Source of the DNA: Bernardetia sp. ABR2-2B
GTDB lineage: Bacteria > Bacteroidota > Bacteroidia > Cytophagales > Bernardetiaceae
Assembly (NCBI RefSeq): GCF_037126435.1
Contig: NZ_CP147020.1
Coordinates: forward strand, 124,001-188,000
DNA: 64,000 bases
Reading direction: 5' to 3'
Position numbers and translations under genes: made by a program. This document shows, piece after piece, positions 3,940 through 4,632 of the stretch. How positions within the stretch are numbered: position 1 is the first letter of the stretch; every line of letters starts with the position of its first letter. The notes under the pieces are model-generated. The model was not told the origin of the DNA and searched no databases. It saw nothing but the letters and a program-made list of their open reading frames with translations.

Positions 3940-3971
3940 TTTGGAAAATAAAAAAAGGTATTGTATAATTG
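3940..3971 (+). promoter_or_regulatory. Promoter of the methionine leader
   Basis: TTTG (3940-3943) and TATAATTG (3964-3971) are separated by 20 bp. This fits the Bacteroidota -33/-7 arrangement (TTG, about 19 bp, TAnnTTTG), with one mismatch in the -7 box. The predicted transcript would begin near 3978, shortly before the riboswitch. Confidence 0.5.
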
Positions 3972-4030
3972 CATCACACTTCAACTACACTTAGTCAAAT
4001 CTAAATTATTATTGATTTACTAAGCTGTAT

Positions 4031-4136
4031 GAGATTTATAAAGAAGTACAGAGAGAACAGGCTCAATGATGTACTGGCAACCTGCCGTTATTTTGTAACT
4101 ACAAATAAGCAAGGTGCTAATTCCTGCCTAAATCAA
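4031..4136 (+). promoter_or_regulatory. SAM-I (S-box) riboswitch aptamer
   Basis: The sequence carries the S-box core in order: AGAG (about 4050), GGCTCAATGA, CTGGCAACC (4074-4082), then AAGGTGCTAATTCCTGC (4111-4127). Pairing supports the fold: P1 GATTTA (4033-4038) with TAAATC (4129-4134), P2 GTAC with GTAC, and P3 TTATTTTG with CAAATAA. The 5' half is less G-rich than the Firmicutes consensus. It lies upstream of metY, the expected context for SAM feedback. A covariance-model score was not available, so subclass within the SAM-I clan is my reading. Confidence 0.87.
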
Positions 4137-4141
4137 ATTTT

Positions 4142-4173
4142 TTCTTTTGTGTTTTGAAAAAAACACGAAAGAA
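4142..4173 (+). promoter_or_regulatory. Strong hairpin directly after the SAM aptamer, probable expression platform
   Basis: TTCTTTTGTGTTTT (4142-4155) pairs with AAAACACGAAAGAA (4160-4173) over 14 bp with a single G-U wobble, closed by a GAAA tetraloop. It starts 8 nt after the P1 3' strand. Only three T residues follow, so it is not a classical terminator. It ends 27 nt before the leader-peptide ATG and could affect its translation. Confidence 0.65.
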
Positions 4174-4200
4174 TTTAGGACATATAAATTTACAACCATA

Positions 4201-4365
4201 ATGAATACAGACATTCTACACGCTGACCATAATCAGCACTCCGAAACGGAAGTATCTCAATCAACAGTTCATATCTCAAATAAGGGAGTTACTATCATCA
4301 ACTCTACTTCTTGCCGAGCCTTTTACTTAGCTAACTCTAAAGCTATGTGTTGTTGCTGCCGTTAA
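4201..4365 (+). CDS. 54-residue leader peptide ending in four cysteines
   Basis: A small ORF between the SAM riboswitch and metY. It starts at ATG 4201 and ends CCCCR-stop, with codons TGT TGT TGC TGC CGT TAA at 4348-4365. The N-terminal part is polar and unremarkable; the C-terminal part (TSCRAFYLANSKAMCCCCR) looks constrained. Runs of regulatory codons just before the stop are typical of attenuation leader peptides, where ribosome stalling at low charged tRNA changes downstream RNA folding. I infer a cysteine-sensing leader for the sulfur-assimilating metY gene. An in-frame upstream TTG at 4147 lies inside the hairpin and is an unlikely start. An alternative is a small secreted or metal-binding Cys-rich peptide, but there is no signal sequence. 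Confidence 0.7.
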   Translation: MNTDILHADHNQHSETEVSQSTVHISNKGVTIINSTSCRAFYLANSKAMCCCCR

Positions 4366-4632
4366 TCTACTAACCTCATCTATTTTCAGTATTTTATGTA
4401 TTTGCTTAAAGCAAGAGCTAATTTTTTGTATCTATACAAAACTAATTTGTTCTACTTTAACTTAAAATTATACAAAATAAAATCTGAGGAATAGCTGTAC
4501 CTACAATTTTTATTAAAATTAATTTGATATTAAAACATATATCAAAAAACTGATTTATATAAATCAATTATAATTCAAAATTTCTCATAACTAATAATTT
4601 TATACAAATTATTACCCTAAATTATATAACCT
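4366..4632 (+). promoter_or_regulatory. Leader-to-metY spacer with attenuator-like hairpins
   Basis: 267 bp without a gene. TTGCT (4402-4406) / AGCAA (4410-4414) is followed by T6 at 4422-4427, a weak terminator-like structure. TTTTGTA (4424-4430) pairs with TACAAAA (4435-4441). The rest is AT-rich and appears unstructured up to the metY ATG. The attenuator role is inferred from position after the Cys leader. Confidence 0.4.

Follow-up and report, generated by a model that had tools for sequence, protein, structure and literature searches.

SAM-I (S-box) aptamers joined to a short leader peptide ORF are far more widespread than the single locus from which this analysis started, and the arrangement occurs in many genera and several orders of Bacteroidota. 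At that locus, which lies upstream of metY in Bernardetia sp. ABR2-2B within the 64,000-nt stretch of contig NZ_CP147020.1 analyzed here (hereafter the window, to whose first letter all positions refer), the leader ORF ends in a run of Cys codons, and the arrangement is proposed to form a two-signal sulfur gate that would work in three steps: SAM-controlled ribosome entry on the leader, slowing of the ribosome according to tRNA charging, and a relay to the gene downstream. To this reading, which is built on sequence comparison, we give a probability of about 0.7.

The metY leader of Bernardetia

A covariance search with RF00162 gave a match at 4033-4138 of the forward strand, the sole one in the 5.38-Mb genome, with 48.6 bits where the gathering score is 44.4, which bears out the S-box core claimed in the preliminary description. 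The putative aptamer, of class A (see below), is extended by alignment to 4190. In the consensus fold, the 5' strand of P1 (GAUUUAUA, 4033-4040, +) pairs with UAUAAAUU (4183-4190, +), thus closing 3' of an extended P4 arm (4127-4179, +). The end of the Rfam match at 4138 is therefore too early, probably because P4 is unusually long, and P1 ends ten bases upstream of the leader ATG. At the base of P4 is a helix conserved in the alignment of 15 aptamers (CCTAAAT at 4127-4133 with ATTTAGG at 4173-4179), whereas the length of the arm differs among relatives. The 14-bp hairpin with a GAAA loop, previously described as a separate element, turned out in the alignment with 14 relatives to be part of this arm; a role for it as terminator or anti-terminator was likewise ruled out, since in the consensus fold it is P4. 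The consensus of the 15 class A aptamers comprises 31 pairs, 10 of which retain pairing through changes on both sides. Covariation within P1 is slight and hardly informative: variation is mostly confined to the two outer pairs, neither of which exceeds the shuffle maximum.

The consensus of Bacteroidota promoters is TTTG/TAnnTTTG, and a promoter-like TTTG ... TATAATTG can be read in the sequence upstream of the aptamer (3941-3971, +). Divergent from the metY leader lies a hydroxymethylglutaryl-CoA synthase-like gene (2355-3716, -; TIGR01835, 280.8 bits, under the cut-off). On the other side of the aptamer, an ORF encoding a putative leader peptide of 54 aa with the end MCCCCR* (4201-4365, +), whose frame and position are conserved, starts with the ATG at 4201 and closes with TGT TGT TGC TGC (4348-4359, +), CGT and the TAA at 4363-4365. 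A hairpin within it (4324-4349, +) has a 3' arm that ends in the first Cys codon. The spacer from the leader stop to the metY ATG at 4633 (4366-4632, +) measures 267 nt, is structured and is richer in C than in G; it is presumed to be the site of the second regulatory step. The 54-codon ORF, its four terminal Cys codons and the 267-bp distance, all given in the preliminary description, were thus confirmed in the sequence. The gene that follows is metY, encoding O-acetylhomoserine/O-acetylserine sulfhydrylase (4633-5958, +; TIGR01326, 686.8 bits, above the cut-off), and on the same strand stand genes for an OsmC-like protein (6113-6574, +; PF02566, 2.9e-17), a metX-like homoserine O-acyltransferase (6616-7725, +; TIGR01392, 1.7e-96, under its cut-off) and homoserine dehydrogenase (7745-9052, +; NF004976, 332.1 bits, above the cut-off).

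Leader ORFs in the host family and order

SAM-I matches were found in 10 of the 11 genomes of the host family and in 146 of the 194 genomes of the host order. The sole family genome without a match (G006, 93% complete) holds only distant relatives of MetY, with 37-39% identity. An ORF with a Cys-run end is present downstream of the aptamer in 11/12 family loci; at the twelfth (L003), which lies upstream of cysH, the leader ends in HCCRY. In the genome G004, a second SAM aptamer (L012) is followed by a Cys leader, MCWCCCC, and by a gene without an NCBIfam match.

The order sample consists of 101 loci drawn from the best-scoring order matches listed and from the family search. Samples such as this one contain related genomes and are to that extent non-independent. 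The loci divide into 68 of class A and 33 of class B, although lists ranked by score may contain too few class A loci, since those from the window's genus score low. Class B aptamers carry CTTATC in P1, and class A, which is defined by exclusion of that motif (64 TTTATA, 3 CTTATA and 1 TTTATG), has a weak inner P1 that is mostly A/U. Among the matches listed, the P1 energy averages -2.92 kcal/mol over the 68 class A loci, where the 3' strand was placed by best pairing, versus -6.24 kcal/mol over the 33 of class B, where it was taken from the Rfam end; the P1 helix of the window, at -2.8 kcal/mol, is also weak. With a P1 of such weakness, SAM could decide whether the helix forms in class A.

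The leader ORF was defined in this sample as the first ATG within 0-29 nt that opens a frame of 15-80 codons. Among the matches listed, 63/68 class A loci have such a short ATG ORF within 30 nt of P1, with a gap from P1 to the ATG of 9 nt in 29/63 and of 8-12 nt in 47/63, and an ATG located 8-12 nt 3' of the aptamer occurs in 0/33 class B loci. The distance of the leader ORF from P1 is therefore nearly fixed in the order sample, unlike its distance to metY. Cys runs of at least three codons are found in 41 of the 68 class A loci and in none of the 33 of class B, again among the matches listed. By leader frame (0/1/2) these runs are distributed 41/0/0 over the 68 class A loci listed, and this bias, together with the 0/33 of class B, indicates that the Cys run is not due to chance. 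Among the same matches, 37/41 runs end at most two codons from the leader stop, and the 41 loci span 22 genera and 9 families by a hand count of genome labels. Codon use within the runs is mixed (TGT 179, TGC 84). Of the two features whose conservation was in question, the Cys run upstream of metY is kept in 22 genera, whereas its distance to metY varies. The last 12 residues of 63 order-sample leaders contain 33.5% Cys and 5.0% Met, versus 1.1% and 0.9% in the rest.

Searches against NCBIfam and Pfam, at E up to 1, gave no match for the leader ORF, and by eye the body of the peptide is not conserved past close relatives. A P1-proximal ORF with a sulfur-codon end is what a short leader rich in codons for the pathway amino acid looks like. 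Three loci (L097, L099 and L116) combine the aptamer with a leader that bears an Asn-rich stretch as well as a Cys run, e.g., NNNNCCCCC. Cys-run leaders were also sought elsewhere in the genomes with the pattern TGYTGYTGYTAR, which has 139 sites in six genomes; among the 30 inspected, the only ATG-started short ORF without a longer overlapping ORF was that of L348, which is itself SAM-linked. This pattern needs a stop directly after the run, hence the window's leader (CCCCR) is not matched by it.

Cysteine and methionine tails beyond the order

A pattern scan of named genomes returned at least 120 stretches; 80 of them were listed and 77 analyzed (three were too short). With the leader ORF defined here as the first ATG within 0-34 nt opening 12-90 codons, a short leader ORF is present in 53/77 loci among the matches listed, which include Sphingobacterium, Pedobacter, Mucilaginibacter, Solitalea, Psychroflexus and several MAGs of Flavobacteriales. 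The tails of these Sphingobacteriales and Flavobacteriales leaders contain Met, Cys or both, e.g., ...RMRMQ and ...CICMCCCC. Over 50 leaders of this sample (a statistic that omits L244 and L266, both of which are included in the target-gene count), the last 12 residues contain 20.3% Cys and 14.5% Met, versus 2.0% and 0.6% in the rest. Locus by locus, the enrichment is weaker in Sphingobacterium, where 8/19 of the leaders listed carry no more than two Cys/Met among their last ten residues. At two loci (L220 and L222), the aptamer and leader seem to lie upstream of a short gene (174 aa, MSE...) and not of metY.

Elsewhere in the phylum, 54 further SAM-I loci (14 of 30 returned loci plus 40 fetched regions), mostly with other P1 types, contain no Cys-run leader (0/54). 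One of them, L184, has a single CCC 421 nt 3' of the aptamer, outside any leader, and in L162, which belongs to another order, a class A leader ends in ACCITRMR.

Target genes and loci without a leader

Target types were assigned for counting by short sequence motifs, by which L054 and L234, metX-like by eye, were filed as other, and a sulfur tail was taken to mean at least three Cys/Met in the last ten leader residues. Among the order matches listed, leaders with such tails precede metY in 35/46 cases, cysH in 3/3, metX in 2/8, metH in 0/4 and other genes in 7/7. The corresponding count in the named sample covers 75 loci, leaving out L208, which the order sample already contains, and L223, a leaderless locus of a Lachnospiraceae MAG that was taken as a chance match; among those listed, sulfur tails were found at metY in 28/41, metX in 5/13, metB-like genes in 2/13 and other genes in 3/8. 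One of the two metB-like cases, L266, is probably spurious, being an ORF of 12 codons at a distance of two nt from P1. Leaders that fall short of a sulfur tail so defined also occur at metY, in 11/46 order and 12/41 named loci among the matches listed, and together with the sulfur-poor leaders of Sphingobacterium they suggest that leader translation may matter there without Cys sensing. CysH scores above family cut-offs in L125 and L003, L110 being typed by motif, and in all three a cysD-like ORF was seen by eye 3' of cysH. The target of L106 belongs to the nitrite/sulfite reductase group and that of L074 is an NhaC-like transporter, each under the cut-offs, and scanning the target genes of L012 and L097 gave no family match.

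Some class A loci dispense with the leader. The own ATG of metX (L234, L236 and L257) or of metY (L271) stands 8-10 nt 3' of P1, and in L244, for which the script picked a spurious ATG, the metX start is by eye 8 nt 3' of P1. Although these loci include close relatives (two Aquirufa and two similar MAGs), such gene starts suggest that the target of the switch is the first suitable ATG 3' of P1. Class A aptamers without a leader ORF are further found at metB-like genes of Algoriphagus and Spirosoma and at metX of Dyadobacter, and these must work differently. In eight loci of the Algoriphagus/Spirosoma type that lie upstream of a metB-like gene and have no leader ORF (L203, L206, L212, L225, L226, L255, L260 and L281), GGC is located directly 3' of P1, a different platform.

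The spacer and possible routes to metY

The leader hairpin at 4324-4349 was compared in seven Bernardetia loci, in which 55/63 cells are paired and two pairs show A-U/G-C and U-A/C-G replacements; with the sequences anchored on TATGTG, 17/1000 shuffles were as good (shuffle mean, 53.0). This amounts to moderate support from conservation for a predicted hairpin that touches the first Cys codon. The spacer of the window has a fold z of -3.52. In the order sample, spacers behind Cys leaders average -2.15 (n = 39) versus -0.28 behind others (n = 12), a contrast that is not general, since the named sample shows no such split (-1.96 with sulfur codons, n = 33, versus -2.32 without, n = 10). Longer spacer alignments revealed no single attenuator fold shared among loci.

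Two outputs were considered and rejected. Between the Cys run and the spacer there is no excess of pairing over shuffles (mean z -0.05), and intrinsic termination does not qualify as a general output, as terminator-like sites (a hairpin plus a T-run) 3' of the leader occur in 14/84 loci against 7.6 expected, at most a mild excess; for the leaders with sulfur codons the values are 6/35 against 4.5 and 6/33 against 2.6 (20 shuffles each).

Over 84 loci, C/(C+G) averages 0.639 for the leader body and 0.635 for the spacer, compared with 0.526 for the initial 300 nt of the gene, with the excess over the gene going in that direction in 76/84 and 77/84 loci, respectively; in the 150 nt 3' of the 33 class B aptamers it is 0.527. 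Such C over G in leader and spacer fits Rho loading without showing it, and a use of Rho in these bacteria is suggested here by composition only. At a few metX loci the layout would allow another route: in L086 and L102 the metX start follows the leader stop by 2 and 4 bases, and in L118, whose leader has no sulfur tail, the two overlap. These contacts between stop and start fit translational coupling.

Within the window's spacer lies a conserved element, AATAGCTGTACCTACAATTTTTATTAAAAT (4490-4519, +). A pattern written from it matches 7/7 Bernardetia loci; the element is nearly unchanged upstream of metY in six of the seven and recognizable in L012, where another gene follows, and it could be an internal promoter or a protein site. 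In Sphingobacterium (L205, L227, L233, L240, L250 and others), TCGTC/TCGTT immediately 3' of the leader stop can pair with GACGA/AACGA downstream, which by eye only resembles a post-stop hairpin.

A proposed two-signal sulfur gate and its alternatives

In the proposed gate, SAM binding would stabilize the weak P1, whose 3' strand lies about 9-10 nt upstream of the leader ATG, and would thereby block ribosome entry on the leader ORF, a step for which the comparative support is strong. When SAM is low, the leader would be translated, and ribosomes would slow at the terminal Cys codons if charged tRNA is scarce; here the comparative support is good, and in other lineages terminal Met codons, or Met and Cys together, would take the role of the sensor. 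More weakly, we infer that translation of the leader with a slowed ribosome keeps the RNA downstream permissive, most likely because Rho is kept off the C-rich, G-poor leader and spacer while hairpins near the Cys run and stop are opened. With SAM high, and the leader untranslated, or with Cys plentiful, and the ribosome freely released at the stop, metY would be attenuated. At the few metX loci where the leader stop reaches the gene start, the relay would instead be translational coupling. The gated gene would be metY here and cysH or metX elsewhere. A dual SAM/cysteine sensor had already been suggested for this locus, and the aptamer match, the in-frame Cys run and the spacing between P1 and leader all lend support to that reading.

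That the leader ORF merely relays the SAM signal, its terminal Cys and Met being a feature of release, folding or the peptide, appears unlikely. Sulfur-poor leaders do stand at the same position upstream of metY (the 11/46 and 12/41 listed above), and the available text on uPPE2 of M. tuberculosis offers a precedent, a riboswitch-controlled uORF required for expression (PMC11260477), but the enrichment in Cys/Met is confined to the end of the ORF and in frame, sulfur tails are absent at metH (0/4), and the make-up in Cys and Met depends on lineage. In-frame placement also bears on the idea that the UGY-UGY run is an element of the RNA, acting by pairing or protein binding without its codons being read: 41/41 runs are in the leader frame, pairing with the spacer has no excess (mean z -0.05), and Met codons occupy the same place in other lineages, so that this idea is very improbable, even though by eye a few loci (e.g., L047) show GCAGCA-type stretches with which UGY repeats could pair.

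The conserved position of the ORF, which would be under SAM control, could be that of a small protein with a function of its own, whose Cys tail would bind metal or be lipidated and whose gene would share an ordinary SAM riboswitch with metY; such a protein is hardly to be expected, however, when the body is by eye unconserved past close relatives and without a family match and some other genera have Met-rich tails. Transcription termination is the typical mode of S-boxes in Firmicutes. If the S-box here were of this ordinary terminating kind, as in the premature termination by an S-box in firmicutes reported in the text available from PMC2940859, the ORF would be incidental, but by eye no hairpin plus T-run lies between the window's P1 and the leader ATG, which are ten bases apart, the visible hairpin is P4, and the ORF keeps a nearly fixed position relative to P1, all of which leaves very little weight on termination.

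Dual sensing of SAM and Cys would thus best explain the comparative evidence. Across several orders of Bacteroidota, it is fairly probable, if a little less so than the gate at metY, that a composite regulator exists in which a SAM-I aptamer has a leader peptide as its expression platform, so that metabolite and tRNA charge are sensed in series. SAM would gate ribosome entry, and the last codons, whether Cys, Met or mixtures according to lineage, would set what happens next; such a regulator, if real, would act as a logic gate on the assimilation of sulfate and the synthesis of homocysteine. What appears to be joined in series in many genera is a riboswitch and a leader peptide whose start is the presumed target of the riboswitch. 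One short RNA could then balance Cys against Met/SAM in these bacteria, as a natural two-input gate with a lineage-specific codon readout, and its natural variants (no leader, a leader without sulfur codons, a Met leader, a Cys leader) would lend themselves to dissecting each step.

Comparison with known systems

Mycobacterial polycysteine leaders were reportedly described by Canestrari et al. in 2020. As for a SAM riboswitch that controls a Cys/Met leader peptide, no report was found among the literature matches listed, with subscription literature mostly outside the scope, and the statement of the preliminary description that no combination of the two in one leader was known to it holds within that same range. 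Each half is already known, the Cys leaders (PMC1262725, PMC8632094) as well as the riboswitch-controlled uORF (PMC11260477), as far as the text available from these and the other sources cited below extends. A review names leader-peptide attenuation as a major competitor of riboswitches for amino-acid sensing (PMC9971707). Within the phylum, leader-peptide attenuation upstream of amino-acid operons is reported in Flavobacterium psychrophilum (PMC9723704), and sORFs resembling leader peptides in B. thetaiotaomicron (PMC7366714), SAM/Cys leaders being named in neither of the two partial texts.

The Cys leader peptides of Actinobacteria are, as here, short ORFs with a Cys run near the stop, upstream of cys operons; they have no conserved terminator and Rho was suggested (PMC1262725). 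The leaders described here differ in having a SAM-I aptamer ahead of the leader start and mostly metY as target, no riboswitch being named in the accessible portion of that report. The uORFC-8-2 motif, located upstream of the Cys-tRNA synthetase gene, similarly has a tandem-Cys uORF and ribosome-mediated attenuation, but it possesses an intrinsic-terminator-like stem, and its excerpted description names no SAM aptamer (PMC8632094). In the B12 riboswitch/uPPE2 system of M. tuberculosis ppe2, the riboswitch acts on the translation of a uORF through which control is relayed to the gene, as proposed here, whereas the ligand is B12 and the uORF is, in the sections available, not described as an amino-acid sensor (PMC11260477).

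Other systems combine two signals or two starts. At S. meliloti metA, an initiation region is masked by a SAM riboswitch that controls translation further downstream, as would be the case here, but the riboswitch is of the SAM-II type, there are two in-frame AUGs, and no amino-acid leader peptide is described in the part of the article at hand (PMC9373788). SAM and Cys-tRNA signals also converge on a sulfur operon in Clostridium ubiG; there, according to the partial text, Cys is sensed by a T-box with no leader peptide and the S-box acts via an antisense RNA (PMC2940859). The tandem attenuators of Salmonella mgtCBR place two signals in one leader, one of them via a codon-rich ORF, the signals being, in what the source's available text covers, ATP and proline without a SAM riboswitch (PMC3641672). 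In the Xanthomonas SAM-I system, likewise, SAM and a methionine tRNA signal are combined by one leader at the level of translation; its expression platform, for which the portion available describes no leader peptide, binds uncharged initiator tRNA directly (PMC7270179), whereas in the gate proposed here the charge of the tRNA would be read by a ribosome at the last codons of the leader.
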